Positions 20,013-60,332 of a stretch of 64,000 nt of DNA are shown here, one piece after another (positions within the stretch are counted from its first letter, which is position 1; every line of letters starts with the position of its first letter). Source of the stretch: a virus. The translations under genes and the position numbers were made by a program. The DNA is taken from positions 32,514 through 96,513 of IMG/VR virus record IMGVR_UViG_3300008113_000016; one strand, written 5' to 3'. A model generated the notes under the pieces. It had not been told where the DNA came from, did not search any database, and saw only the letters and a program-made list of their open reading frames with translations.

Positions 20013-20085
20013 GCCTTTATAACTCAGTGGATAGAGTCACTGCCTTCTAAGCAGTTGGTCGCAGGTTCGATTCCTGCTAAGGGCG
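20013..20085 (+). tRNA. tRNA-Arg (TCT)
   Basis: Acceptor GCCTTTA/TAAGGGC, D-arm ACTC...GAGT, anticodon stem ACTGC/GCAGT with loop CTTCTAA (anticodon TCT at 20046-20048), T-arm GCAGG-TTCGATT-CCTGC. No complete CCA is encoded. It reads AGA, the commonest Arg codon in these genes. Confidence 0.93.
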
Positions 20086-20103
20086 CAATGAAAGGAAATT
20101 ATT

Positions 20104-37705: not shown

Positions 37706-37957
37706 ATGGCACAAAAACAAAAAGATATTAAGACAATTGACTTGACATATGATCAGGCTCATGACCTAGTATCAAAGAACCCAGATTTGTATTGGGATGG
37801 ATACACCATTGTAAGTTGGAGAGAGAATGTAGATGCATTCACAATGCCTAATGGTTTATTCAGAAATGGTAAATGGGGTATTGCCTTCAGACACTCATTT
37901 AATGAGGCAGGCATTTGGAGGGTTCCAGTATTTTATGTTAATAGACGTAGACGGTAA
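37706..37957 (+). CDS. Conserved small actinophage protein
   Basis: 83 residues from ATG 37706, seven bases after AAAGG. Sequence: DLTYDQAHDLVSKNPDLYWDGYTIVSWRENVDAF, then a basic tail VNRRRR. No catalytic motif. Overlaps the whiB start by 23 bases and is the first gene of a strong promoter, so it may act early. Confidence 0.6.
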   Translation: MAQKQKDIKTIDLTYDQAHDLVSKNPDLYWDGYTIVSWRENVDAFTMPNGLFRNGKWGIAFRHSFNEAGIWRVPVFYVNRRRR

Positions 37958-38222
37958 CTGGAAAAAAGACGCTGCTTGCAAGTCTTTAGATCCAGAACTA
38001 TTCTTCGACAAGTATGAAGAAGATCCAGACTTAGCAAAGGCTGTAGATCAGATTTGTTTAGGTTGTCCAGTAATCTCAAGATGTTTTGAGGTAGGTACTA
38101 GTTTGAATAACTATGGAGTCTGGGGTGGTGTATACTTAGTAGAGGGTGAGCCTGATAAGTCTCGTAACCTACATAAAACACAAACAGTTTGGACTGAAAT
38201 TATGGAGTTAATTAATGAGTAA
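37935..38222 (+). CDS. whiB: WhiB-family Fe-S transcription regulator
   Basis: 95 residues. The four cysteines that bind a 4Fe-4S cluster are C15 (AACKSLDPELFF), C41 and C44 (ICLGC) and C50 (SRC), with the conserved GVWGGVYL turn after them. WhiB proteins are restricted to Actinobacteria and their phages; they bind the principal sigma factor and change promoter choice. Start at ATG 37935 inside the previous gene. Confidence 0.9.
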   Translation: MLIDVDGNWKKDAACKSLDPELFFDKYEEDPDLAKAVDQICLGCPVISRCFEVGTSLNNYGVWGGVYLVEGEPDKSRNLHKTQTVWTEIMELINE

Positions 38223-47151: not shown

Positions 47152-47714
47152 TGGGGTTTTGGGATAGCCTAGACAAAGAAACTGCGGGAGATGCCATCCT
47201 AACAGGATATAAAGGTGATCTTGCAGATATGCCTCTCTATGAAGAGGTACACAACAAAGTTCCAGGAGGTCACTCAGTTCTTGACTTTGGCTGTGGTGTA
47301 GGAAGAAATATCCCAAGCCTAGTAAACAAGTTTGAAAAGGTAGTAGGGTATGACTTCCCTAATATGCTTGATCTAGTTCCAGAAGGGCGGAAACAGGTAA
47401 GCAATGACCCATACAAACTATCTTACAGTAGTAACTGGGACTATGTATCCCTACAGAAATATGATTGTATCTTTGCTAGTTTAGTCTTCCAGCATATTGA
47501 TGAAGAAGAACTAAATACATACTTATCAGATATGCAAGGTATGTTGGTTAATAAATTAGTTGTACATTCAAGAACTACTTTAGATAACGGTACTACTCTA
47601 GTGTTACCTATTATTGAAAAATACTTTGCTTTGGATTCTATTGATTATAAGAAAGATCCAAACAGTGCTGCTTACGATCACTTCATTGCGGTCTTTAAGC
47701 ATCAGTGGATGTAG
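47151..47714 (+). CDS. Class I SAM-dependent methyltransferase
   Basis: 187 residues. SAM-binding motif I SVLDFGCGVGRNIPSLV, motif II EKVVGYDFPNMLDLV, and YDCIFASLVFQHIDEEELNTYLSDM. It has the Methyltransf_11/25 layout; the substrate is unclear. Its last 10 bases form the 5' end of tRNA-Gly, and its TAG stop coincides with the TAG of the tRNA. Confidence 0.8.
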   Translation: MGFWDSLDKETAGDAILTGYKGDLADMPLYEEVHNKVPGGHSVLDFGCGVGRNIPSLVNKFEKVVGYDFPNMLDLVPEGRKQVSNDPYKLSYSSNWDYVSLQKYDCIFASLVFQHIDEEELNTYLSDMQGMLVNKLVVHSRTTLDNGTTLVLPIIEKYFALDSIDYKKDPNSAAYDHFIAVFKHQWM

Positions 47715-47775
47715 CGTAGTGGTAGCGCATCACCTTGCCAAGGTGTAGGTGTGGGTTCGATTCCCATCATCCGCT
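47705..47775 (+). tRNA. tRNA-Gly (GCC)
   Basis: Acceptor GTGGATG/CATCCGC, D-arm GCGT...GCGC, anticodon loop TTGCCAA with anticodon GCC at 47737-47739 (stem TCACC/GGTGT has one T-T mismatch at its base), T-arm GTGGG-TTCGATT-CCCAT. The 5' end overlaps the methyltransferase stop codon. Confidence 0.88.
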
Positions 47776-47786
47776 CAAAAATAACT

Positions 47787-47892: not shown

Positions 47893-48312
47893 CTACTTAA
47901 TCCGAATAGTTTTTGGTTTCTTCTCTTCTGGCACAATACGTTCTACTTCGATGGTTAGCATTCCTGCATCCATCTTGGCTCCAACGACTTCCATGAATTC
48001 GCCAAGTGCAAAAGTTCTTACGAACTTTCTTGTGGCAATACCTCTGTGAAGATACTCTGCAGCATCCTCATCAGCCTTTTCACCTTTAACGATAAGTGTG
48101 CCATTATCTACAGACACCTCTACATCGTCCTTGTCGAAGCCAGCAACAGCAATAGATACCTTGTAGGTATCATCGTTTTCTTTCACGATATTATAAGGTG
48201 GATATGATTGCTTAGATGCTGCTTCATGAATATGTGCAAAACGGTCTAACTCACGGTTAAACCCAATAAAAAAAGGATCTGAGAACAGATCCATAGTAAA
48301 TAGATTACCCAT
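47893..48312 (-). CDS. Small heat-shock protein (Hsp20/IbpA-like)
   Basis: 139 residues from ATG 48312 with AAAAGGAGAAC upstream. Alpha-crystallin domain: YNIVKENDDTYKVSIAVAGFDKDDVEVSVDNGTLIVKGEK, then IATRKFVRTFALGEFMEV and GMLTIEVERIVPEEKKPKTIRIK with the C-terminal I-x-I motif. A holdase chaperone; in T4-like cyanophages similar proteins are structural helpers. It has its own promoter and a bidirectional terminator, so it is an independent unit. Confidence 0.9.
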   Translation of the reverse strand: MGNLFTMDLFSDPFFIGFNRELDRFAHIHEAASKQSYPPYNIVKENDDTYKVSIAVAGFDKDDVEVSVDNGTLIVKGEKADEDAAEYLHRGIATRKFVRTFALGEFMEVVGAKMDAGMLTIEVERIVPEEKKPKTIRIK

Positions 48313-48374
48313 TTTTGTTCTCCTTTTAAGCGAGTAAATTGGCGGAATCCCAAATGGCAATTCCACCTGATACC

Positions 48375-51763: not shown

Positions 51764-52300
51764 CTAGTAGTGGAAATCAACTGGAACGATATATTGTAGC
51801 ATAGCCTTGTCAGGATTGTCAAGTCTCTCCATAAGATACTTCATATGGCTGGTATGCTCTACACAGTCAAAGAAATGGCTATCTGAGGTATAAAAGTCCA
51901 TGAGTGATTCGCAAGCGTTCTTAATGGTATAAGTATTCATGCTGAATCTCTGATTATCTGGAATACCACTATTTGAGATATAATCAACCATATCACTAAC
52001 AAACTTATCTGTGTTAATTTCCTTTAATGCACGATTCATGTTTTCAATACGCCAAGACTTAATTTGTTCAATAAGATTATTAAACTTATCTTTGTCAGTT
52101 GCATAGGATATAACTTGTGAATCATTAGGTGAGTATCCGTCTCCAATTGGATTCCAACGACCACCACCAACTACATGCCAGTCAGACCATTCTGGAAAAC
52201 TGTATCCAGTATCATCTGAAGGTTCTAGTAATGCTGAAACTTCTGAGAATGCTTCTTCTTTATCTGGGGCTTCTACTATAAAATAATGAAGCGTATGCAT
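51764..52300 (-). CDS. Conserved phage protein of leftward operon
   Basis: 178 residues. LHYFIVEAPDKEEAFSEVSALLEP then WSDWHVVGGGRWNPIGDGYSP: the VGGGRWN turn is a recurring actinophage motif. A helical C-terminus follows. It is the first gene after promoter P1 (52331-52353), with AAAGGTTACC upstream. Function unknown. Confidence 0.65.
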   Translation of the reverse strand: MHTLHYFIVEAPDKEEAFSEVSALLEPSDDTGYSFPEWSDWHVVGGGRWNPIGDGYSPNDSQVISYATDKDKFNNLIEQIKSWRIENMNRALKEINTDKFVSDMVDYISNSGIPDNQRFSMNTYTIKNACESLMDFYTSDSHFFDCVEHTSHMKYLMERLDNPDKAMLQYIVPVDFHY

Positions 52301-52330
52301 GAGGGGTAACCTTTCTGTTGTGAGGCTCTA

Positions 52331-52353
52331 AGTATACCAAAAGCCACTGACAA
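52331..52353 (-). promoter_or_regulatory. P1, TGTCAGT-type promoter
   Basis: Leftward TTGTCA (complement of 52348-52353) followed by GTGGCTTT and TGG-TATACT (hexamer 52331-52336); 11 bases separate TTGTCA from the hexamer. A TTGCAT 17 bases upstream of the -10 also exists, so ordinary recognition is possible too. Confidence 0.7.
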
Positions 52354-52389
52354 ATGCAATTCCCGTGACTTTTTTGCTTACCCCGTAAT

Positions 52390-52405
52390 AGTGAGATTGA
52401 TCACA
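52390..52405. promoter_or_regulatory. CRP/GlxR-like palindrome
   Basis: AGTGA-GATTGA-TCACA, centred about 72 bases upstream of the P1 start point. CCCGCCC follows at 52413-52419. Confidence 0.6.
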
Positions 52406-52430
52406 TATCCCACCCGCCCTGCATTTCTTG

Positions 52431-52506
52431 CGATTCCGATGGGATTTGAACCCACGATCTCTACAGTGACAGTGTAGCGATTTAAACCAGACTAATCTAC
52501 GGAACC
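52431..52506 (-). tRNA. tRNA-Asp (GTC)
   Basis: On the complement: acceptor GGTTCCG/CGGAATC, D-arm GATT/AATC, anticodon stem CTACA/TGTAG with loop CTGTCAC (anticodon at 52468-52470), T-arm GTGGG-TTCAAAT-CCCAT, discriminator G. Lies 7 bases after pseudoknot A. Confidence 0.92.
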
Positions 52507-52512
52507 AAATGG

Positions 52513-52541
52513 TGAGCAGTTTTAAATCTTGCTCAGGATTT
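52513..52541 (-). ncRNA. H-type pseudoknot element, copy A
   Basis: On the leftward strand: stem 1 AAATC/GATTT (complements of 52537-52541 and 52524-52528) closes loop CTGAGCAA. TGAGC in that loop pairs with a downstream GCTCA (52513-52517) after the linker AAAACT. It begins 6 bases after the DUF932 gene stop and precedes tRNA-Asp. Confidence 0.65.
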
Positions 52542-52546
52542 TTTAG

Positions 52547-53557
52547 TTATGCGCTAACTAAAGTCTGCACAACTTTTAGCAGACGATTTTTTTCTGCATT
52601 GACCTGTGGGTCAAAACCAGAAGCAGCAGCAAGAATGCTTTCGTTGTTTCCACCACGAGCAGTGCGGAACCAATCAAGGCGTTCTGTGAGAGCGTTAAAC
52701 GCACCCCAAGCATTACCAGCAATCATTCCGTTAAATTGCCCTGTGTAAATATCGTTGATAATATCAACTTTATTTTCCCACTTCTTAAGCGCACCCTTTG
52801 TATCCTTCTCAGGCTTTGGGTAAGCAGCAAGAATAATCTTGTTAAAGTCTTGTGCGGTGATTTCCTTCTCAATCATAGCCTTAGCCATTTTATCGAATTC
52901 GTCCATATAGACATTAGCAAGACCAAGAGCCTCACGAGCAGCAACTACCTTGCCCTCTGCGGTCTGAGTGTGGCGTATCTTGAAAGATTGCTTTACGCCG
53001 TTCTTCTTCTTAATTGAATTAAGAGCAAGATTGAGAGTGTTAGCGCACACTACACGAACAGGTGTAATGCTTGCTTGAATTGCAACAGAACCGTCGTGTG
53101 ATGTGTTGATGAGCAAATAAGTCTTTACAACATCTGCAACACCGTTAGGGTCTAGAACAGTTTCACGCTCTAGTGCAATAGAACCGAAAACCACTTTACC
53201 CTTTTTGATTGAGCCAGCAGTTTCCCAACGACCTCCACCGTCGATGATGTTATCACCAAATGAGAATAAATCTTCATTCTGTAGTGGAACATAACGCTCA
53301 CCAACAACGCCAAGAATATCTGTGCCGTTGTCATATGGATTGGTGCGTGTAACCATAAATGAATTAGAAGCCTTACGATACCCGTCAGGGATAATCATAT
53401 CTTCTAACTTAACATTCCAGTTATTTAGTTTTGCTAGTGATAGCATTTCTGATGTATTTACTTCTTCTGTAAATACTGTGCCTAAACCGTGCCAAGCAGG
53501 TTCTCTGAATGAAGCGAAAGATGTTTCGCCGTTTTGTTGCTCTAAATCGTGAGCCAT
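52547..53557 (-). CDS. DUF932 / phage-plasmid LGT-type protein
   Basis: 336 residues from ATG 53557 (GAAAGGAA upstream). SFASFREPAWHGLGTVF at the N-terminus, then VGERYVPLQNEDLFSFGDNII, and the ending GNAWGAFNALTERLDWF match the DUF932 (TIGR03299) family of phage and plasmid proteins, length about 330. Biochemical role unknown. It has its own P2 promoter and ends at pseudoknot A. Confidence 0.88.
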   Translation of the reverse strand: MAHDLEQQNGETSFASFREPAWHGLGTVFTEEVNTSEMLSLAKLNNWNVKLEDMIIPDGYRKASNSFMVTRTNPYDNGTDILGVVGERYVPLQNEDLFSFGDNIIDGGGRWETAGSIKKGKVVFGSIALERETVLDPNGVADVVKTYLLINTSHDGSVAIQASITPVRVVCANTLNLALNSIKKKNGVKQSFKIRHTQTAEGKVVAAREALGLANVYMDEFDKMAKAMIEKEITAQDFNKIILAAYPKPEKDTKGALKKWENKVDIINDIYTGQFNGMIAGNAWGAFNALTERLDWFRTARGGNNESILAAASGFDPQVNAEKNRLLKVVQTLVSA

Positions 53558-53586
53558 TTTTTTCCTTTCGATTGGTTGATGGTGCA

Positions 53587-53609
53587 ATTATAGCAGTCTG
53601 GGCTGACAT
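53587..53609 (-). promoter_or_regulatory. P2, TGTCAG-type promoter
   Basis: Leftward ATGTCA (complement of 53604-53609), 11 bases, TGC-TATAAT (hexamer 53587-53592). A TTGACA 18 bases upstream of the -10 also exists, giving dual recognition. Confidence 0.7.
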
Positions 53610-53793
53610 ATGTCAAATCGTCCTGTGAAAAATGTCCGATTTGCGTAATGCTATCTTATATAGTGAGACGGGGGCGGGTTGGAAAAGGGACAGTTTAAAC
53701 ACATGTCCAGGTGATGATCCAAGAAAATGACAATAAACTTGGATGGACCTTTTAACATCGTGTCCAGGATGATTAGATAGCCCCTACCTAAAT
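53610..53793. repeat. Intergenic region with paired repeats
   Basis: No gene seen. It holds a CTGTGAA-N14-CGTAAT element (53623-53649), GGGCGGG (53672-53678), an inverted repeat ATCCAAG/CTTGGAT (53717-53723, 53738-53744) and a direct repeat TGTCCAGG at 53704-53711 and 53761-53768. Confidence 0.6.
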
Positions 53794-54270
53794 TTAAGAG
53801 GAAGCCCGTGCACTGTCCAAGGACCAATCATGAATCTCAACGTTTCCATTGCTAGATTCAATTGAAATCTCATCTTGCATTACCCAATCAATATCGAAGT
53901 CTTCAACTTCATCGAATGGTACTGAGACTGTTCCTGTAACTGTAAACGTTGCAGTGAATTCAATTTCCTTGGAAGGATTAATTCCAAAGTACTCGCATAG
54001 TTCACGCAGCACGTCGTCCTTATCATAGTTTGGGTTAGACCATTCCATGATGTGTTCATCAAGACCGTTAATCTTATCCTGCAGAACTGCATTATGCTTT
54101 GACGCTTGTCGTGCATTGTGTAGTTCCCATTCAATATTGCGTACCTTATCGATAGTATACTCAGGGTCTGAGTATCCATGAATCACCTTGTACGAGATGA
54201 GTGTGTCTGGGTTGTAAGGTACTGACAGTTCTTCTTCTGTCTTATATGTTTGTAGCGACATAAGGGGCAT
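53794..54270 (-). CDS. Hypothetical conserved phage protein
   Basis: 158 residues. An N-terminal MSLQTYKTEEELSVPYNPDTLISYKVIHGYSDPEYT, a helical centre (VRNIEWELHNARQASKHNAVLQDKINGL), and a C-terminal beta domain (EIEFTATFTVTGTVSVPFDEVEDFDI). Promoter P3 lies just upstream. Unknown function. Confidence 0.6.
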   Translation of the reverse strand: MPLMSLQTYKTEEELSVPYNPDTLISYKVIHGYSDPEYTIDKVRNIEWELHNARQASKHNAVLQDKINGLDEHIMEWSNPNYDKDDVLRELCEYFGINPSKEIEFTATFTVTGTVSVPFDEVEDFDIDWVMQDEISIESSNGNVEIHDWSLDSARASS

Positions 54271-54297
54271 TCTTCTTTCTAGTAGGTTAGGGTCCTA

Positions 54298-54320
54298 ATT
54301 ATACACGAACCCAGTGACAT
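54298..54320 (-). promoter_or_regulatory. P3, TGTCA-type promoter
   Basis: Leftward ATGTCACT (complement of 54313-54320), 11 bases between TGTCA and TATAAT (hexamer 54298-54303). A CRP/GlxR-like TGTGA-GGAATA-TCACA sits at 54343-54358. Confidence 0.65.
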
Positions 54321-54342
54321 TTTCAACTTGTACCTTAATGAA

Positions 54343-54358
54343 TGTGAGGAATATCACA
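54343..54358. promoter_or_regulatory. CRP/GlxR-like palindrome
   Basis: TGTGA-GGAATA-TCACA, a perfect match in both half-sites, about 58 bases upstream of the P3 start. Confidence 0.65.
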
Positions 54359-54367
54359 AAAAGTCGG

Positions 54368-54385
54368 GCGCAGCATTTGCTGCGC
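54368..54385 (-). terminator. Leftward rho-independent terminator
   Basis: GCGCAGC (54368-54374), ATTT loop, GCTGCGC (54379-54385). On the leftward strand it is followed by CCGACTTTTT. It ends the GP88 operon. Confidence 0.8.
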
Positions 54386-54401
54386 TAACTAAATTAATTT
54401 A

Positions 54402-54473
54402 TCATGAAATCCAATCACCAATCAAAATTAAAAATAAAATAAAAAATGATAATCCAATTATTACACTTGCCAT
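54402..54473 (-). CDS. Membrane micro-protein
   Basis: 23 residues: MASVIIGLSFFILFLILIGDWIS, one hydrophobic segment, with GAGG upstream at a good distance. It starts 8 bases after the GP88 stop and is followed by the leftward terminator. Confidence 0.45.
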   Translation of the reverse strand: MASVIIGLSFFILFLILIGDWIS

Positions 54474-54480
54474 GTTAACC

Positions 54481-55200
54481 TCACTTCTTACTAGAGGAGA
54501 AGATTATATCAGATTTATTGAAGACGCACAAGGAGCAGGTTACACAAGCAGAACCCTCTTTGCTAATCAGTGGAATAGCCTTTTTATTTTCAGGACACTT
54601 TGCTCCAGGCTTTCCGATAATTTCTTTTAGAGTGCTTTGACCAATAGCAAAATTTTGTGCAAGGTATGCCATTTTAATACCATAAGTCAATTTAAGATCT
54701 GTTGCCTCTTTGATATTCTCACTGTCTGCAGAATAATATAATGAGAGATTATCTATATCCTTAAGCATAATTGCAGCAGACTTTACACGAGTATATACCC
54801 AGAATTGAATATCAGGATGATTTAAGATAATATGCTTCCAGGCGAAGGCATAATCGTCGCTAAAGAAATCTCCGTCCCAGTGGATACGGAATAACTTTTC
54901 AGCATTGCGCTTTTCACAATCCTTTTTGAAATCTGCAATCATCTCTTCAAGCAGCAATTCCATTGTGTCGTGGTCTGCGTCTTTTAGCAAATTCCAATTG
55001 TTAAGTAGATTATCTCTTACGCCCTTATATATCTTTTCTAGTTTTCCTGCGTAGCAGACTTTCTTACATATAGAGGTTTCACCAGGGCACGAGTAAGCCT
55101 TGCCACTAGGCAATCCAAAAGTGTTGGCAATTGTTGGGGTTTTTCCATTAGGGGAGACGGCATTAGTAACTTTCCTATCTTTAGAACGAATGAGGGGCAT
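54481..55200 (-). CDS. GP88-family protein (Cys-rich)
   Basis: 239 residues. NTFGLPSGKAYSCPGETSICKKVCYAGKLEK matches the GP88 phage family (PF17338: PGxxYSCPGATxxCxxxCYA). Later RIHWDGDFFSDDYAFAWKHIIL and a C-terminal GSACVTCSLCVF add more cysteines; the fold is thought to resemble radical SAM-like metalloproteins. The family is frequent in mycobacteriophages and of unknown activity. Promoter P4 precedes it. Confidence 0.85.
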   Translation of the reverse strand: MPLIRSKDRKVTNAVSPNGKTPTIANTFGLPSGKAYSCPGETSICKKVCYAGKLEKIYKGVRDNLLNNWNLLKDADHDTMELLLEEMIADFKKDCEKRNAEKLFRIHWDGDFFSDDYAFAWKHIILNHPDIQFWVYTRVKSAAIMLKDIDNLSLYYSADSENIKEATDLKLTYGIKMAYLAQNFAIGQSTLKEIIGKPGAKCPENKKAIPLISKEGSACVTCSLCVFNKSDIIFSSSKK

Positions 55201-55215
55201 TTAGTGTTCCTTTCT

Positions 55216-55353
55216 TTAGCGATATTCTACCATACGGGACTGACGATGTTTTACCTTGCGAGAATAAGCCTTTTTAGACTTTACATAGGTAGCAGCATTA
55301 GACCTACGGAGATCCATAAGTTTTCGCAATTCTTCCTCAGTCTTTTTTCGCAT
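55216..55353 (-). CDS. Small basic helical protein
   Basis: 45 residues: RKKTEEELRKLMDLRRSNAATYVKSKKAYSRKVKHRQSRMVEYR, strongly basic and helical, likely nucleic-acid binding. Promoter P5 lies just upstream, and P4 is inside its 3' end. Confidence 0.5.
   Translation of the reverse strand: MRKKTEEELRKLMDLRRSNAATYVKSKKAYSRKVKHRQSRMVEYR
55224..55246 (-). promoter_or_regulatory. P4, CGTCAGT-type promoter
   Basis: Leftward TCGTCA (complement of 55241-55246), 11 bases, TGG-TAGAAT (hexamer 55224-55229). Drives the GP88 gene. Confidence 0.55.
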
Positions 55354-55359
55354 ATTGCA

Positions 55360-55382
55360 AGTATAGCAAATTTATCAGACAT
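55360..55382 (-). promoter_or_regulatory. P5, TGTCTGA-type promoter
   Basis: Leftward ATGTCT (complement of 55377-55382), 11 bases, TGC-TATACT (hexamer 55360-55365). Drives the 45-residue basic protein; the start point may nearly coincide with its ATG. Confidence 0.55.
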
Positions 55383-55398
55383 TAGCAAATCAAAACGC

Positions 55399-55446
55399 TG
55401 TGATAAATCTCACATGGTTTTAATGCTGTGGATAACCTGTGGATAA
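55399..55446. promoter_or_regulatory. CRP/GlxR palindrome plus two DnaA-box-like sites
   Basis: TGTGA-TAAATC-TCACA at 55399-55414, then TGTGGATAA at 55427-55435 and 55438-55446 and CCCGCCC at 55448-55454. The DnaA-like sites are in the same direction as the main cluster at 48.6 kb. Confidence 0.6.
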
Positions 55447-55531
55447 ACCCGCCCGCATTTTTATGCATAGCAATTTATAAAAATACATTTTTTATTTTTG
55501 ATCCAAATAAAAAAAATAAATAAAAAAATGT

Positions 55532-55559
55532 TGAGCAGTTTTGCGACTTACTCAGGTCG
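55532..55559 (-). ncRNA. H-type pseudoknot element, copy B
   Basis: Leftward strand: stem 1 CGAC/GTCG (complements of 55556-55559 and 55544-55547) closes loop CTGAGTAA; TGAGT pairs with GCTCA (complement of 55532-55536, one G-T pair) after linker CAAAACT. Followed on that strand by several T. Located 27 bases after the stop of the 55586-56011 gene. 55455-55530 is very AT-rich with no gene. Confidence 0.65.
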
Positions 55560-55585
55560 TTTTGTTTTAGCGTTGTGCTAAACTA

Positions 55586-56011
55586 TTACAAATAACGAGC
55601 AATAGCGTTGTATGTAGAAGTATTTACAACTTCCTCATCTGTCATTTTGAGGATACGAATTGCGTTCGTGATTTCCTCTTTTTGCTCGTTGTAAGTGTGG
55701 GTGTGAATTACCTCAAAATCCTTTTCAGGTTCTTGTGGGAAATCTCCCTGCTTTACTACAATGTCAAAATCAACATTGAGGTTGTTGTTCCAAGAACGAT
55801 AGTTAGTGCGAAGGTTCTCAGCCTTTGAGAAGTTCTCAATAGCCCATTTACCAACTTCCTTGCGCCACTTTTCCATAGCCTTAGTGTGCTTGGCTTCGTT
55901 TTCGCCTTGTGTAGCGTAGTTCTTTTCTAACTCAGCAAGGCGTGTTTCTAGTGCCTTGATTACTTTAGGGGTAGCGATTTTCACGCTAATAGATTTTCCG
56001 TTTCTAGCCAT
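55586..56011 (-). CDS. Conserved helical protein
   Basis: 141 residues from ATG 56011 (AAAAGGAAAC upstream; the longer start at 56077 is unsupported). A central coiled coil (ETRLAELEKNYATQGENEAKHTKAMEKWRKEVGKWAIENF) follows MARNGKSISVKIATPKVI. The C-terminal half is EEVVNTSTYNAIARYL. Unknown function. Promoter P6 drives it. Confidence 0.65.
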   Translation of the reverse strand: MARNGKSISVKIATPKVIKALETRLAELEKNYATQGENEAKHTKAMEKWRKEVGKWAIENFSKAENLRTNYRSWNNNLNVDFDIVVKQGDFPQEPEKDFEVIHTHTYNEQKEEITNAIRILKMTDEEVVNTSTYNAIARYL

Positions 56012-56050
56012 TTTGTTTCCTTTTCTGTTGAGGGTTTGTCTTGTAGGGGT

Positions 56051-56073
56051 ATTATAGCAGGGGCTACTGACAA
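56051..56073 (-). promoter_or_regulatory. P6, TGTCAGT-type promoter
   Basis: Leftward TTGTCA (complement of 56068-56073), GTAGCCCC, TGC-TATAAT (hexamer 56051-56056). A clear example with no ordinary -35 at 17 bases. Confidence 0.75.
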
Positions 56074-56095
56074 GCAATAACCCCTGCTAATCTTA

Positions 56096-56272
56096 TTAGT
56101 CTAGGGCTTCTGAATAGCAAGCGTCATAGAAACGCTTACTATCGAAGTTAGGGTTATCACTCTCAAAATAAGCACAGAACTCGTCAATGAGTTCCTCAAA
56201 TACAATTTGAGGGATTTCGTCTTTGTATGTGCTAAGGATTTCAGCCGTTGCCACATAGTCTTTGCGTGTCAT
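56096..56272 (-). CDS. Conserved actinophage protein (MTRKDY type)
   Basis: 58 residues. MTRKDYVATAEILSTYKDEIPQIVFEELIDEFCAYFESDNPNFDSKRFYDACYSEALD matches the short MTRKDY...FxxDNPxFDxxRFxxAC proteins common in actinophages. A second ATG at 56275 gives one extra Met. Function unknown. Confidence 0.7.
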   Translation of the reverse strand: MTRKDYVATAEILSTYKDEIPQIVFEELIDEFCAYFESDNPNFDSKRFYDACYSEALD

Positions 56273-56279
56273 CATTTTA

Positions 56280-56447
56280 TTAGTTTGCCTTTCTTGTGCG
56301 ATAGTATTTGTAAGCCTTGTAACCTGCGTATGCTAATCCTGTTAGCAATACTGCGTTAGGTATGTTTATGTCAATCCATAATAGATTATCTACTTGGAAA
56401 GAAATCCACCAATTATTGCTTATCTCAAATAATACTTTGTTATCCAT
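56280..56447 (-). CDS. Small membrane protein
   Basis: 55 residues: an N-terminal ISNNWWISFQVDNLLWIDINI, a hydrophobic segment NAVLLTGLAYAGYKAYKYY and a basic tail RTRKAN. Pseudoknot C lies 30 bases upstream of its start, so it may be controlled at the RNA level. Confidence 0.5.
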   Translation of the reverse strand: MDNKVLFEISNNWWISFQVDNLLWIDINIPNAVLLTGLAYAGYKAYKYYRTRKAN

Positions 56448-56476
56448 TTTTACCTGTCCTTTTCTTTTTTGTTAGT

Positions 56477-56504
56477 TGAGCCTTTTAGACACTTGCTCAG
56501 GTGT
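56477..56504 (-). ncRNA. H-type pseudoknot element, copy C
   Basis: Leftward strand: stem 1 ACAC/GTGT (complements of 56501-56504 and 56489-56492) closes loop CTGAGCAA; TGAGC pairs with GCTCA (complement of 56477-56481) after linker CTAAAAG. It lies between the stop of the 56513-56689 gene and the small membrane protein. Confidence 0.65.
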
Positions 56505-56512
56505 GTGGATAA

Positions 56513-56689
56513 TTACTTATCCAAATCCTCAACTGACACAGTTGTCCAACGCTCTCCCTTTGGAGTAGTTAGTCGAACTCTCACCGAGCCAGATGAGTTA
56601 GATACGATTTCCTCAATCGTTCCTGTAACGCCACTTTTTAGAGTTGTGAATAAATCGCCAACCTTGTAAGTGTTTCCATTTACTGACAT
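56513..56689 (-). CDS. SH3/KOW-like small protein
   Basis: 58 residues: NGNTYKVGDLFTTLKSGVTGTIEEIVSNSSGSVRVRLTTPKGERWTTVSVEDLDK, a beta-barrel pattern with VGDxF...GTIxxI typical of KOW/SH3-like domains. It may bind nucleic acid. Promoter P7 lies upstream. Confidence 0.55.
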   Translation of the reverse strand: MSVNGNTYKVGDLFTTLKSGVTGTIEEIVSNSSGSVRVRLTTPKGERWTTVSVEDLDK

Positions 56690-56722
56690 TATTGCTTCCC
56701 TTCGTTTGTTGTTTGTAGGCTT

Positions 56723-56745
56723 ATTGTATCAGGTGCTACTGACAA
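56723..56745 (-). promoter_or_regulatory. P7, TGTCAGT-type promoter
   Basis: Leftward TTGTCA (complement of 56740-56745), GTAGCACC, TGA-TACAAT (hexamer 56723-56728). No ordinary -35. Confidence 0.75.
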
Positions 56746-56746
56746 A

Positions 56747-56869
56747 TTACAGAGCACCCTCTTGGAACAGCCCAATTTCCAAATCTAGTTTTTCATTTTC
56801 GGTGGCTTCGGATAAATCTACCCAACCAGCACCATTTTCATCTATTCTAAAAATCTCTACATAACCCAT
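56747..56869 (-). CDS. Small acidic protein
   Basis: 40 residues: GYVEIFRIDENGAGWVDLSEATENEKLDLEIGLFQEGAL. Acidic, one beta hairpin and a helix. Promoter P8 lies upstream. Unknown. Confidence 0.5.
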   Translation of the reverse strand: MGYVEIFRIDENGAGWVDLSEATENEKLDLEIGLFQEGAL

Positions 56870-56895
56870 TTGGTTTGTCCTTTCTGTATGTAGCA

Positions 56896-56924
56896 ATTAT
56901 AGCAAAATCTTGGAGGCAAATCAA
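56896..56924 (-). promoter_or_regulatory. P8, ordinary leftward promoter
   Basis: TTGATT (complement of 56919-56924), 17-base spacer, TGC-TATAAT (hexamer 56896-56901). It lacks the TGTCAGT element but has the same extended -10 and an upstream palindrome at 56965-56980. Confidence 0.6.
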
Positions 56925-56964
56925 ATCCAAAACGAAATAATCTCACATTTTGATACAAAATCCC

Positions 56965-56980
56965 TGTGATAAAAATCACA
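56965..56980. promoter_or_regulatory. CRP/GlxR-like palindrome
   Basis: TGTGA-TAAAAA-TCACA, perfect half-sites, about 82 bases upstream of the P8 start. GGGCGGG lies beyond it at 57012-57018. Confidence 0.65.
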
Positions 56981-57031
56981 CGGATCTTACTTGACTTACT
57001 GGCGAGTAGGGGGGCGGGTTTAGTTGAAACT

Positions 57032-57109
57032 TCAACTATATATTGCGATGATCCATCCCACTGTAATTAAAATAAATAAAATAACATCTAACAATTTTGC
57101 ATTAACCAA
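57032..57109 (-). CDS. Possible membrane micro-protein
   Basis: 25 residues from TTG: VNAKLLDVILFILITVGWIIAIYS, one hydrophobic helix, overlapping the previous gene. Weak ribosome site. Its stop lies in a stem-loop TAGTTGA/TCAACTA (57021-57038). Confidence 0.3.
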   Translation of the reverse strand: MVNAKLLDVILFILITVGWIIAIYS

Positions 57110-57234
57110 TCGTCTTCAGGATAATATTTTGCTAACGTTTCATCGCTGTAGCATGCATGACACAATTGAATGTCGTCGTCAATTGGTCCTTCCATCCACA
57201 TTTTATTAGTACAATTTAAGCAAGTTTCATTCAT
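57088..57234 (-). CDS. Small zinc-ribbon protein
   Basis: 48 residues: NETCLNCTNKMWMEGPIDDDIQLCHACYSDETLAKYYPEDDW, two Cys pairs as in zinc ribbons. GGAGAAG upstream. Function unknown. Confidence 0.6.
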   Translation of the reverse strand: MNETCLNCTNKMWMEGPIDDDIQLCHACYSDETLAKYYPEDDWLMQNC

Positions 57235-57523
57235 ACTCTTCTCCCTCTACTGGGTCGATGAACCATTGCAAGTGGTGCTGCTCTACAATTGCGTGTGCAG
57301 GTGCTTGCGTTGAACCTTTATAAGTAATTTGAAAATCACCAACCATTGGCATTTCAATCATACGATTATAATCTTCATCGTAGAATGCGTCAATTGCTTC
57401 AATACAAGGTTGAACCATTTCTGCGGGAACGGGTGGATAGTGATTACCCTTCAAGTGATAGAGTAATTGTGTTTCTAAGTCTAGAACGCTATCTGCTAAT
57501 CCAATTGCTGTAACTGATCCCAT
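57227..57523 (-). CDS. Conserved phage protein
   Basis: 98 residues: TAIGLADSVLDLETQLLYHLKGNHYPPVPAEMVQPCIEAIDAFYDEDYNRMIEMPMVGDFQITYKGSTQAPAHAIVEQHHLQWF. The motif LxGNHYPPxPxxM...CxxAI is recurrent among actinophages. Function unknown. Confidence 0.65.
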   Translation of the reverse strand: MGSVTAIGLADSVLDLETQLLYHLKGNHYPPVPAEMVQPCIEAIDAFYDEDYNRMIEMPMVGDFQITYKGSTQAPAHAIVEQHHLQWFIDPVEGEEYE

Positions 57524-57525
57524 TA

Positions 57526-57666
57526 TTATTTCTCCTCTATATCTGATACATAAACATCATTTTTATTTAGTAATCCGTATTTGATATTGCTATCAAACAT
57601 TTCAATAGCAGCGTCATAGTCCTCTGCTTCAACATTTATAAAACAAGTAAATTCAAACAGGGGCAT
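57526..57666 (-). CDS. Small protein with ferredoxin-like pattern
   Basis: 46 residues: PLFEFTCFINVEAEDYDAAIEMFDSNIKYGLLNKNDVYVSDIEEK. Beta-helix-beta pattern. TAATG overlap with the next gene. Unknown. Confidence 0.5.
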   Translation of the reverse strand: MPLFEFTCFINVEAEDYDAAIEMFDSNIKYGLLNKNDVYVSDIEEK

Positions 57667-57875
57667 TATTTCACGCTCACATTTCCATTAGTGTAGAAAG
57701 TCTTAGTATACATTTTACCCGTAGGGTCTGACAGGTTATAGGTTGCGTATTCTTTTGCGTCTCCATAATCAACGCACTTAGTCCAAGCGTCTACTGCTTC
57801 TAGTAAATCGCTAACACGCAAAGTATTTACAAGGCTTCCGTCATAGGAAGTAGTTAGAGAGTAATTGTATTCCAT
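57666..57875 (-). CDS. Small conserved protein
   Basis: 69 residues: EYNYSLTTSYDGSLVNTLRVSDLLEAVDAWTKCVDYGDAKEYATYNLSDPTGKMYTKTFYTNGNVSVK. Beta-helix-beta layout, resembling small actinophage proteins with the DYGDAxEYATYNL motif. Unknown function. Confidence 0.6.
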   Translation of the reverse strand: MEYNYSLTTSYDGSLVNTLRVSDLLEAVDAWTKCVDYGDAKEYATYNLSDPTGKMYTKTFYTNGNVSVK

Positions 57876-57877
57876 TA

Positions 57878-58081
57878 TTACTCACCAACCTTTACTGCTA
57901 CTGTGCGATAAGTATTCTTGAACCCATACTGAGGCTTTACCTCTACAAGGTAAGAGTCGCAACCTTCATACCAAACTGCGTGAGGGTGCTTTTCTGCGGA
58001 GACAATTTCTCCACTTACTGAACGGGATACATAGCGTGTGCCTACAAGTAGGCTTTCGATAGAATAAACATTTGCTGACAT
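57878..58081 (-). CDS. Small SH3-like protein
   Basis: 67 residues: NVYSIESLLVGTRYVSRSVSGEIVSAEKHPHAVWYEGCDSYLVEVKPQYGFKNTYRTVAVKVGE, beta-rich and SH3-like. Promoter P9 lies upstream. Unknown. Confidence 0.55.
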   Translation of the reverse strand: MSANVYSIESLLVGTRYVSRSVSGEIVSAEKHPHAVWYEGCDSYLVEVKPQYGFKNTYRTVAVKVGE

Positions 58082-58203
58082 TATTTAGTCTCACTTTCTT
58101 TTGTTGTTGATACGGACATTGTAGCAGATAGAACTGACAAGGCTTCTGCCTTGCTTGCTTGACGGGTGGCGATTACATACGCCTTGAATTCGTCTAGGTT
58201 CAT
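58081..58203 (-). CDS. Small helical protein
   Basis: 40 residues: NLDEFKAYVIATRQASKAEALSVLSATMSVSTTKESETK, helical then Ser/Thr-rich. AGAAGG upstream. P9 lies inside its 3' end, P10 before it. Confidence 0.45.
   Translation of the reverse strand: MNLDEFKAYVIATRQASKAEALSVLSATMSVSTTKESETK
58118..58140 (-). promoter_or_regulatory. P9, TGTCAGT-type promoter
   Basis: Leftward TTGTCA (complement of 58135-58140), GTTCTATC, TGC-TACAAT (hexamer 58118-58123). No ordinary -35. Inside the 40-residue gene. Confidence 0.7.
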
Positions 58204-58236
58204 TTTTGACCTTCTTTCGTTGTTGTTATAGTAGCA

Positions 58237-58259
58237 AGTATACCAAAATAGTCTGACAT
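58237..58259 (-). promoter_or_regulatory. P10, TGTCAGA-type promoter
   Basis: Leftward ATGTCA (complement of 58254-58259), GACTATTT, TGG-TATACT (hexamer 58237-58242). Confidence 0.7.
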
Positions 58260-58296
58260 TATCAAATCCAAATTCGGACATTTGGGACACTTTCCG

Positions 58297-58339
58297 TGTG
58301 ATAAATCTCACACTCGTAAATCCAGTGATAAATCTCACA
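58297..58339. promoter_or_regulatory. Tandem CRP/GlxR-like palindromes
   Basis: TGTGA-TAAATC-TCACA at 58297-58312 and AGTGA-TAAATC-TCACA at 58324-58339, 27 bases apart. Centres lie about 73 and 100 bases upstream of the P10 start. CCCGCCC lies at 58373-58379. 58340-58419 has no gene. Confidence 0.7.
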
Positions 58340-58419
58340 TCGTACATAAAGGTGCAAAACGGACATTTTGCCCCCGCCCGTTTTTTATGCAGATCGTCGC
58401 ATTTTTATAAATTACAAAA

Positions 58420-58626
58420 TTAATTTTTTAATTTAGCAATTATTTTTTCTGCTTCTAATTTTGTAATTATTTCATCTGCGAAAGCAATTGAAATTTCTGT
58501 TTGCTGTTTTTCTGTAAGCGATGCCCACAAATAACCAAGCAAATAGTGTGTGCCACTATCTACATTACCATTACGAATTTTTGTAGACATTTCTTTTACT
58601 TCTTGTAGCAATTCCATATTAGCCAT
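58420..58626 (-). CDS. Small helical protein
   Basis: 68 residues: NMELLQEVKEMSTKIRNGNVDSGTHYLLGYLWASLTEKQQTEISIAFADEIITKLEAEKII. Helical, no motif. It overlaps the next gene by 8 bases. Unknown. Confidence 0.55.
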   Translation of the reverse strand: MANMELLQEVKEMSTKIRNGNVDSGTHYLLGYLWASLTEKQQTEISIAFADEIITKLEAEKIIAKLKN

Positions 58627-58801
58627 TTAGCCACTCCTCTCCAGAAAAATCACTTTCCATTTGTGATAAATCTTCATCAGTAGGTGTAAAGAAATCCTCA
58701 AAATCTTCTTCTACTTCAGGGGTAGTAAAGAGAGAGGCATTATCTTCATAGTAGTTATCCCAAGAGTATTTTGGGGCTTCCCAAGACATTGTGTAAGTCA
58801 T
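58619..58801 (-). CDS. Small acidic protein
   Basis: 60 residues: TMSWEAPKYSWDNYYEDNASLFTTPEVEEDFEDFFTPTDEDLSQMESDFSGEEW. Very acidic and aromatic, a possible DNA mimic or inhibitor. TAATG overlap with the gene after it. Confidence 0.55.
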   Translation of the reverse strand: MTYTMSWEAPKYSWDNYYEDNASLFTTPEVEEDFEDFFTPTDEDLSQMESDFSGEEWLNG

Positions 58802-58926
58802 TATTTATTCTCCATTTCTTTTACGCAATCACAAGGCTCACAATCATAGTCATTTTCGTTACCCCAAAAGATAACGCCTTGACCATTACATTCATCACAA
58901 TCAAAACGCATTAGAAAGTTTATCAT
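58801..58926 (-). CDS. DnaJ-type zinc-knuckle protein
   Basis: 41 residues: RFDCDECNGQGVIFWGNENDYDCEPCDCVKE, a CxxCxGxG repeat as in DnaJ zinc domains. ATG at 58926 overlaps the previous stop (ATGA), with GGAAGG upstream. Confidence 0.55.
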   Translation of the reverse strand: MINFLMRFDCDECNGQGVIFWGNENDYDCEPCDCVKEMENK

Positions 58927-59105
58927 TGAGAAACCTTCCAATCTCTCCACATTGGGAGGCGTTCAGGGTCAGTATCATCATACCAACGCTCTATGTTATT
59001 TTCACAAACTTCGCAGAATGTGAATTGGTCATCTCCTACCATTGAGATAGCAGACTTATTAGGTGTGTGAGATTTACACACTTCGTTTATTGTTAATGTA
59101 GTCAT
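58923..59105 (-). CDS. Conserved actinophage protein with Cys pair
   Basis: 60 residues from ATG 59105 (AAGG upstream; GTG 59114 possible). LTINEVCKSHTPNKSAISMVGDDQFTFCEVCENNIERWYDDTDPERLPMWRDW. The FCxxCExxIERWYxxDDPER pattern is common in actinophages. Zinc-binding likely; function unknown. Confidence 0.6.
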   Translation of the reverse strand: MTTLTINEVCKSHTPNKSAISMVGDDQFTFCEVCENNIERWYDDTDPERLPMWRDWKVSQ

Positions 59106-59138
59106 TTTGACCACCTTTCTTTAATTTCTAATACTAGT

Positions 59139-59161
59139 ATCCTAACAGATACCACTGACAA
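59139..59161 (-). promoter_or_regulatory. P11, TGTCAGT-type promoter
   Basis: Leftward TTGTCA (complement of 59156-59161), GTGGTATC, TGT-TAGGAT (hexamer 59139-59144). Confidence 0.65.
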
Positions 59162-59170
59162 ATTGAGGTC

Positions 59171-59222
59171 TTATTTGCTTAGGCTCACTGTGATTTATCT
59201 CACATTTATTTGCTAAGGCTCA
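59171..59222. repeat. Direct repeats flanking a CRP/GlxR-like palindrome
   Basis: TTATTTGCTTAGGCTCA (59171-59187) and TTATTTGCTAAGGCTCA (59206-59222) differ at one base, 35 bases apart, with TGTGA-TTTATC-TCACA (59189-59204) exactly between them. Confidence 0.75.
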
Positions 59223-59258
59223 TACCTTGCTTCTTTATTTAATTTTTCTTATACGGGA

Positions 59259-59287
59259 AGTATAGCACAAGGAAACGGAAAAGTCAA
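59259..59287 (-). promoter_or_regulatory. P12, ordinary leftward promoter
   Basis: TTGACT (complement of 59282-59287), 17-base spacer, TGC-TATACT (hexamer 59259-59264). No gene lies between it and P11, so it acts in tandem or makes a leader RNA. Confidence 0.6.
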
Positions 59288-59318
59288 GTCCAGACACGGA
59301 CAAAACGGACATTTTTAA

Positions 59319-59334
59319 TGTGATGTTCGTCACA
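59319..59334. promoter_or_regulatory. CRP/GlxR-like palindrome
   Basis: TGTGA-TGTTCG-TCACA, about 73 bases upstream of the P12 start. GGGCGGG at 59337-59343. Confidence 0.65.
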
Positions 59335-59358
59335 GAGGGCGGGTGATCCAAGGCGGGT

Positions 59359-59388
59359 TTTTTTGCTAACCTTTCGATTAGCAAAAAA
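59359..59388. terminator. Stem-loop after leftward gene
   Basis: TTTTTTGCTAA (59359-59369), 8-base loop, TTAGCAAAAAA (59378-59388), then CTTTTTT on this strand. It fits a rightward terminator, but it also directly follows the stop of the leftward gene 59394-59543. Confidence 0.55.
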
Positions 59389-59393
59389 CTTTT

Positions 59394-59543
59394 TTAGTTT
59401 TCGATAACTTCTAAAACTTCAAAAGCATTAAACTTTTCTAATTCATCATCAGAAAGTTTTGCAAATACTTTATTTAGATTGAATACTGCTTGCAAATCTG
59501 AATCTGCATCAGTAACGAAACTAATCAAAACATTTTTTTTCAT
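59394..59543 (-). CDS. Small helical protein
   Basis: 49 residues: KKNVLISFVTDADSDLQAVFNLNKVFAKLSDDELEKFNAFEVLEVIEN. AAAGGAG upstream. Its start overlaps the previous stop by ATGA. Unknown. Confidence 0.5.
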   Translation of the reverse strand: MKKNVLISFVTDADSDLQAVFNLNKVFAKLSDDELEKFNAFEVLEVIEN

Positions 59544-59650
59544 TTATATTCTCCTTTCGAGATAAGTTCATCTAGCATTTTTGCTAGTGGGTCTATTGGC
59601 TCGTCTGCCAAATAGTTTTCTAATTCTAATTGTTTTACGAAATCTATCAT
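59540..59650 (-). CDS. Small helical protein
   Basis: 36 residues: IDFVKQLELENYLADEPIDPLAKMLDELISKGEYK. AAAGGA upstream. The pattern ELENYLADEPIDPL looks conserved. Coupled to the next gene by ATGA. Confidence 0.5.
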   Translation of the reverse strand: MIDFVKQLELENYLADEPIDPLAKMLDELISKGEYK

Positions 59651-59673
59651 TGTTTATTTATCCTTTCTTATTC

Positions 59674-59847
59674 TTAGCAATAAACTAATTCTGTAGAGTA
59701 TGAGTATGTCATTGACTCTCTGTCAAAGTAAGCCCACATTTCTTGTGTCTTGTGAGACTTATCTACGGAACAGAACCTGTCCCAACTATCACCTGTCCAT
59801 TGGCAGGATAGGCACTTACTTACTTGATGTGATAATACTTTTGTCAT
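59674..59847 (-). CDS. Small zinc-knuckle protein
   Basis: 57 residues: SHQVSKCLSCQWTGDSWDRFCSVDKSHKTQEMWAYFDRESMTYSYSTELVYC. One CxxC and further Cys. Promoter P13 upstream. Unknown. Confidence 0.55.
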   Translation of the reverse strand: MTKVLSHQVSKCLSCQWTGDSWDRFCSVDKSHKTQEMWAYFDRESMTYSYSTELVYC

Positions 59848-59896
59848 TTTCTGACCTTTCTAGTTTAGAGACCTTCTCTAACTTTCTAATACTGGA

Positions 59897-59919
59897 AGTA
59901 TAACACAGGGTACTGACAT
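59897..59919 (-). promoter_or_regulatory. P13, TGTCAGT-type promoter
   Basis: Leftward ATGTCA (complement of 59914-59919), GTACCCTG, TGT-TATACT (hexamer 59897-59902). Divergent from P14. Confidence 0.7.
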
Positions 59920-59951
59920 TTTGAGGGGTATAAAACGGACATTCTAGACAT

Positions 59952-60011
59952 TGTGATGTAGGTCATATGTGATGTACGCCACAGAGGGCGGGTGGTGTGA
60001 GGTATATCACA
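59952..60011. promoter_or_regulatory. Triple CRP/GlxR-like palindrome array in divergent region
   Basis: TGTGA-N6-TCATA (59952-59967), TGTGA-N6-CCACA (59968-59983) and TGTGA-GGTATA-TCACA (59996-60011); GGGCGGG lies between the last two (59986-59992). It sits between leftward P13 and rightward P14 and could serve both. Confidence 0.65.
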
Positions 60012-60048
60012 AAAATAGTTTTGAGACACGCCCGAAAAACGGGTCAAA

Positions 60049-60071
60049 ATGTCAGTGGTAGGTGATAGGAT
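60049..60071 (+). promoter_or_regulatory. P14, rightward TGTCAGT-type promoter
   Basis: ATGTCA (60049-60054), GTGGTAGG, TGA-TAGGAT (hexamer 60066-60071). The only rightward member of the family; drives 60120-60677. Confidence 0.7.
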
Positions 60072-60119
60072 ACTAGGTATCAAGATGAGATAAAGGTTAT
60101 CTCAAAGAAAGGAGTCAAT

Positions 60120-60332
60120 ATGACTCACTCATTATCCGTAGTGGTAGAACCCTATCACTCTATGTCCTCTAGCAATACTAAGGATAAGAATATCTTTAGA
60201 CTTGCTAATGGTAACTACATTAGCAGAATTGCTTATGTCCATATGGTAGCCTCTGAGGGATTACTCTCTCATCGTTACCTAAGCCCTAACGAAAGTAAAT
60301 GGGTATTCCAATTTAGAAAGGAGTCTAACTAA
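60120..60332 (+). CDS. Small protein, first gene of P14 operon
   Basis: 70 residues: HSLSVVVEPYHSMSSSNTKDKNIFRLANGNYISRIAYVHMVASEGLLSHRYLSPNESKWVFQF. AAAGGAG upstream. Beta/helix mixture; unknown function. The stop overlaps the next start. Confidence 0.6.
   Translation: MTHSLSVVVEPYHSMSSSNTKDKNIFRLANGNYISRIAYVHMVASEGLLSHRYLSPNESKWVFQFRKESN

Follow-up and report, generated by a model that had tools for sequence, protein, structure and literature searches.

Promoters matching the actinobacterial PafBC motif, in helical phase with Crp-type palindromes, in a gene block of a probable actinophage

PafBC promoters, also called RecA-NDp promoters, are known from the DNA repair genes of mycobacteria and other Actinobacteria. 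They have no strong -35 box and stand directly ahead of their genes, with TGTC[AG]G near -26, then ten bases, then the -10 hexamer TANNNT. For Mycobacterium tuberculosis the published form is TGTCGG-10N-TA-3N-T, where TGTCAG or TGTCAC may stand in place of TGTCGG (PMC8151990). PafB binds the -26 element on sigma-A RNA polymerase, PafC contacts sigma region 4, and PafBC is triggered by single-stranded DNA (ssDNA) binding to its WYL domains (PMC11804915). A Streptomyces gene has also been described with a RecA-NDp promoter; the primer used there has TGTCAGTGGTGGCCCGTACGGT just ahead of the ATG (PMC5087735), and this sequence fits TGTCAG-N10-TANNNT. The subject here is an array of that same pattern in a virus, IMG/VR record IMGVR_UViG_3300008113_000016. 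The analysed stretch of 64,000 nucleotides, called the window, covers bases 32514-96513 of the 96,513-bp record and has a G+C content of 38%. Positions are those of the window.

Other known systems are also close. T4 middle promoters combine a MotA box near -30 with an extended -10, and both MotA and its partner AsiA are made by the phage. Class I CRP promoters of the lac type, and the GlxR/Crp sites of actinobacteria, have TGTGA-N6-TCACA upstream in steps of about 10-10.5 bp. The stoperators of L5 and other cluster A phages occur in many asymmetric copies; they have a 13-bp consensus around TGTCAAG, are bound by a phage repressor and are not tied to a -10. The Streptomyces phages Jay2Jay, NootNoot and LilMartin (Stanwilliamsviridae) have a leftward block syntenic with the one described here. 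It includes DUF932, ThyX and a large number of small genes, many of which have their own promoters.

Window positions 52001-60300 contain 10 exact copies of TGTCAG-N10-TANNNT. Nine face leftward genes (52331, 53587, 56051, 56723, 57712, 58118, 58237, 59139 and 59897), and one at 60050 faces a rightward gene at 60120. Three more sites differ by a single base (TGTCAC at 54298, CGTCAG at 55224, TGTCTG at 55360), for 13 in all. A preliminary description of this DNA had recognised twelve copies; the family stands, the count does not. In 1000 dinucleotide shuffles of the region, the exact motif appears 0.094 times on average and at most twice. Over the whole window the 10 copies compare to 1.0 in shuffles, and the remaining 32.5 kb of the 96.5-kb record hold zero copies. 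A degenerate motif that tolerates two mismatches is not enriched, with 118 copies against 108 by chance. This means that the exact form matters.

Across 52331-60071 the genes are small and mostly leftward, and most of the small leftward genes have a copy of their own, with an extended -10. The element is centred near -26 and thus off the -35 position, as described earlier. The earlier formula, TGTCAGT-N8 before TGN, has the right parts with a wrong count: the N8 is measured from TGTCA, and TGTCAGT is actually followed by N6 and then TGN. P8 (56896-56924) and P12 (59259-59287) are indeed ordinary promoters with normal -35 boxes, reading TTGATT-17-TATAAT and TTGACT-17-TATACT.

The DUF932 gene at 52547-53557 was used to find relatives. 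This gave 322 stretches in viral contigs, of which 80 loci were retained; the loci are related, so their sites are not independent. In the 80 loci the gene strand has 570 copies of the motif and the opposite strand 48. The spacing is strict, as it is in about 160 related viral loci altogether: on the gene strand of the 80 loci N9 is found 14 times and N11 3 times, and further away N5 is found 71 times and N15 59 times. The next commonest spacing is N16, with 170 copies on the gene strand of these loci (L003-L082), possibly reflecting a second TA-rich hexamer downstream of the -10.

A logo of 456 distinct sites in 81 loci reads AwwTGTCAGTss...aTGnTAtaaT. Site selection ignored the TGn and the flanks, so these speak independently for a promoter. 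An open reading frame (ORF) in the correct orientation starts 4-110 nt downstream of 970 of the 1031 sites, with a median of 32 nt. In 50 of the 970 the start lies 6-7 nt past the hexamer, as expected of leaderless messages. The 20 long relatives (78-117 kb) have 5-20 copies each, predominantly in one orientation, against 0-2 copies for the same pattern read backward. Where positions are listed, the copies are mostly inside about 10-15 kb. A nucleotide search against cultured phages gave no match.

Such sites could simply be sigma-A promoters with an extended -10, where TGTCAG serves the polymerase alone as a spacer or -35-like sequence and only Crp regulates. TGn is frequent ahead of the -10, and the logo does show a weak TTGAAA-like trace at the true -35 position (TTGACA peaks at -8). 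A -35 needs a longer gap than 11 bp, however, and the six bases are near-absolutely conserved, with A/G almost their sole freedom, which suggests that a specific factor reads them. Crp sites are also wholly missing from several TGTCAG gene families. This explanation is very unlikely.

The sites could also be operators of a phage repressor that overlap promoters, like L5 stoperators or another immunity system. The TGTCA core is common to L5 stoperators, and there are many same-orientation copies in one region of an actinophage. Yet a repressor has no need of strict -10 spacing on hundreds of distinct sites, and these sites are confined to promoters. The likeness to L5 stoperators drawn earlier does not extend to their 13-bp consensus: allowing up to three mismatches, no match overlaps the promoters. 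No immunity repressor was recognised among the scanned proteins either, and repressor operators are hardly probable at all.

In sequence, the element is the published PafBC (RecA-NDp) motif TGTC[AG]G-N10-TANNNT, centred near -26. At the published spacing the window has TGTCAG ten times and TGTCAC once. If +1 is taken as 7 nt past the hexamer, the element covers about -28 to -23, which would agree with the -26 position that PafB requires. All 18 single changes of TGTCAG were counted ahead of a strong extended -10, and TGTCGG alone is clearly enriched, with 18 copies against 0.1 expected; TGTCAT is next with 4. This tolerance corresponds to the R in the published motif; it emerged without having been put into the search, and supports the match. 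Position 5 is a purine and position 6 is G, or C as in the TGTCAC of promoter 54298. Every sequence feature of PafBC promoters that was tried is present, and the sites are predicted to work as such. The promoter type itself is already known: what had been called a new family agrees with the published motif in its sequence, its spacing and the variants that it tolerates. The bases after the phage element, [TA][CG][CG], are slightly unlike the mycobacterial TG. And whereas PafBC promoters are known for host repair genes, here 5-20 copies per genome stand before phage genes, with phased Crp sites added.

These Crp sites form a second layer, which the preliminary description had missed. The palindrome TGTGA-N6-TCACA has 7 exact copies in the promoter region (0.009 expected by shuffle), and none elsewhere in the 96.5-kb record. 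It is predicted to be read by a CRP/GlxR-type protein because it equals the CRP/GlxR consensus. The 80 loci hold 345 copies, at least one per locus, and for any other centre length there are 0-9. With one mismatch allowed, 466 of 913 distinct TGTCAG sites have a palindrome 30-110 bp upstream, and 7 have one downstream. From palindrome start to TGTCAG the distances peak at 34, 44, 54, 64-65 and 75, with minor peaks at 49-50 and 81-82; part of the site set was fetched with a pattern permitting distances of 34-64, and the initial 80 loci, fetched without it, have identical main peaks. The phasing has a resultant length R of 0.64 at a period of 10-10.25 bp. Orthologous promoters are shifted by whole turns, for example 54, 63-65 and 81-82 for the DUF932 gene, or 44, 54 and 64-65 for the MSANVYS family. 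Some TGTCAG gene families are entirely without a Crp site.

The features of the region, with promoters and binding sites as predicted from sequence, are:
52331-52352, leftward: PafBC-type promoter TGTCAGTGGCTTTTGGTATACT, ahead of gene 51764-52300
52390-52405: Crp-like site AGTGAGATTGATCACA, 53 bp upstream of the 52331 promoter
52547-53557, leftward: DUF932-family gene (PF06067, E 2.6e-47; phrog_1221), the probe for relatives
53587-53608, leftward: PafBC-type promoter TGTCAGCCCAGACTGCTATAAT, ahead of the DUF932 gene
54298-54319, leftward: PafBC-type promoter, TGTCAC variant, ahead of 53794-54270, Crp site 39 bp upstream
54343-54358: Crp/GlxR-type palindrome TGTGAGGAATATCACA
54481-55200, leftward: GP88-family gene (PF17338, E 8e-55), common to mycobacteriophages and Streptomyces phages
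55224-55245, leftward: weaker promoter, CGTCAG variant, ahead of the GP88 gene
55360-55381, leftward: promoter, TGTCTG variant, -10 TATACT, gene for 45 amino acids (55216-55353) downstream
55399-55414: Crp/GlxR-type palindrome TGTGATAAATCTCACA
56051-56072, leftward: PafBC-type promoter TGTCAGTAGCCCCTGCTATAAT, ahead of 55586-56011
56723-56744, leftward: PafBC-type promoter TGTCAGTAGCACCTGATACAAT, ahead of 56513-56689
56896-56924, leftward: ordinary promoter P8, extended -10
56965-56980: Crp/GlxR-type palindrome TGTGATAAAAATCACA, upstream of P8
57712-57733, leftward: PafBC-type promoter TGTCAGACCCTACGGGTAAAAT, within ORF 57666-57875 and upstream of the next gene
58118-58139, leftward: PafBC-type promoter TGTCAGTTCTATCTGCTACAAT, ahead of 57878-58081
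58237-58258, leftward: PafBC-type promoter TGTCAGACTATTTTGGTATACT, start codon at about 58203, Crp site (at most one mismatch) 54 bp upstream
58297-58339: pair of Crp/GlxR-type palindromes, 58297-58312 exact, 58324-58339 with one mismatch
59139-59160, leftward: PafBC-type promoter TGTCAGTGGTATCTGTTAGGAT, ahead of 58923-59105, Crp site 44 bp upstream
59189-59204: Crp/GlxR-type palindrome TGTGATTTATCTCACA
59259-59287, leftward: ordinary promoter P12, extended -10
59319-59334: Crp/GlxR-type palindrome TGTGATGTTCGTCACA, upstream of P12
59897-59918, leftward: PafBC-type promoter TGTCAGTACCCTGTGTTATACT, start codon at about 59847
59996-60011: Crp/GlxR-type palindrome TGTGAGGTATATCACA, between divergent promoters, 54 bp from the rightward and 93 bp from the leftward one
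60050-60071, rightward: PafBC-type promoter TGTCAGTGGTAGGTGATAGGAT, ahead of 60120-60332
37833-38222, rightward: WhiB-like gene (PF02467), outside the promoter array

At 55360 the hexamer TATACT ends 6 nt ahead of the ATG of the 45-amino-acid gene, so its transcript is probably leaderless. Elsewhere there are three tRNA genes, Asp(gtc) at 52430-52506, Gly(gcc) at 47705-47776 and Arg(tct) at 20013-20086, and a leftward gene for a small heat-shock protein of the HSP20 family at 47893-48366.

Further elements are found upstream of the TGTCAG promoters in the relatives (L003-L167). ATGTCCG[AT] is about 12-fold enriched, at -22/-23, -31 to -33 and -39/-40. In the window it is at 58276, 58361, 59307 and about 59930, and in the Streptomyces phages it has the opposite orientation. 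Enrichment is about 20-fold for GCGTCTC and CGTCTCA, which are often part of TTGAGCGTCTCA.

Which protein reads the sites? The preliminary description took them to imply a phage-encoded activator or repressor, with WhiB or the helix-turn-helix proteins as candidates. As an activator, WhiB or an unfamiliar small helix-turn-helix protein would sit on TGTCAG near -26 and appropriate sigma the way MotA and AsiA do in T4. WhiB proteins bind sigma region 4, this phage has a WhiB gene, as do 14 of 15 long relatives, and the fixed -10 spacing shows a polymerase-bound factor. WhiB is formally possible as the activator. Against it, the sole long relative without WhiB, which is 98 kb and perhaps a fragment, has 16 TGTCAG sites. 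This phage has no sigma70_r4 or HTH_11 match, and across 12 records no sigma70_r4 match is above the curated cut-off. Nor are WYL or cNMP-binding domains recognisable in any of 21 long records (this one and the 20 relatives). A known host activator, moreover, has the same spacing and substitution profile. A phage-made activator is therefore unlikely; host PafBC is the simpler candidate, and the simplest reading is that PafBC and Crp would both be encoded by the host. The comparison to T4 holds up at the level of architecture and likely of mechanism, with an activator taking the place of the -35 contact of sigma region 4; the box differs, and the activator here is most likely that of the host.

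It is quite likely that the sites are PafBC-dependent, host-type promoters, with Crp input at about half of them, driving a block of phage genes. RNA polymerase of the host, carrying its housekeeping factor sigma-A, would use the extended -10 (TGnTAnnnT). Host PafBC, switched on by ssDNA, would place the helix-turn-helix of PafB on TGTC[AG]G near -26 and so replace the absent -35 contact, which is called sigma adaptation. A host CRP/GlxR-type protein on TGTGA-N6-TCACA, on a fixed helix face upstream, would provide the second input. The block would then fire when the infected cell holds ssDNA, from host DNA breakdown or phage replication, and cAMP-Crp is active. Judging from its layout, the mostly leftward block is probably early. 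Control of the block appears to lie with stress sensors of the host and not with an activator that the phage makes. A stronger version, not quite an even bet, is that this widespread group of actinophages keeps most of the block behind a gate with two inputs, both from sensors of the host: PafBC for ssDNA and Crp for cAMP, helically coupled and with no phage regulator. The literature searched held no precedent for a phage array of PafBC-type promoters in helical phase with Crp sites. For PafBC together with phages or prophages, no title or abstract concerned phage promoters, in a search that mostly did not extend to subscription journals.

Several points weigh against PafBC and Crp as the readers. 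The palindromes would put Crp at about -64.5, -74.5 and -85, which is some 3 bp away from the classical class I positions of E. coli, and here they are coupled to a PafBC-type element and not to a -35. Should PafBC depend on ssDNA, these promoters would have little strength in the first moments of infection. A small phage activator of unfamiliar fold and the same specificity may escape a domain search. The promoters of the Stanwilliamsviridae are built differently, with a normally spaced TTGY -35, TGYCC at -26 and CGGACATTT further upstream; since TGYCC sits at the same position, the history of the element may be wider than PafBC. Finally, the M. smegmatis PafBC motif was absent in an initial search of S. 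venezuelae (PMC9380542), which fits the difference seen in the Streptomyces phage promoters.

The Jay2Jay block contains neither TGTCAG-N10-TANNNT nor the Crp palindrome. The Streptomyces phages do have TGTC-N12-TANANT 21 times on one strand and 0 on the other, and in their loci (L085, L208-L211) the TTGY -35 and the TGYCC at the -26 position precede TAGACT. The promoter architecture is probably old, while the PafBC-type sequence probably belongs to the sampled group.

The WhiB gene makes this probably an actinophage, with an actinobacterial host. WhiB and low G+C make the low-GC Nanopelagicales a plausible candidate (PMC6802176, PMC10202952), and two phages isolated together on Planktophila have genes for WhiB and a sigma factor (PMC10202952). 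A search for the host by DUF932 in genome contigs gave a sole match, in a metagenome-assembled genome labelled as a cyanobacterium. The contig in question (L084, CAINGU010000031.1) is 110 kb long and of this phage group; it carries the only WhiB of that genome, and is therefore probably misbinned phage.

The around 900 natural variants of the PafBC-type promoter form a data set for defining PafBC recognition, and provide a case of Crp and PafBC apparently acting at one promoter. The phages concerned probably infect common freshwater bacteria, and this one is probably a phage of freshwater actinobacteria. If the proposed mechanism is true, their gene programme would be coupled to the actinobacterial response to DNA damage that is independent of LexA, as a counterpart of SOS-driven phage control. 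In the stronger version, with host sensors only, the infection programme would need no regulator of the phage to read both the physiology of the cell and the state of its DNA.

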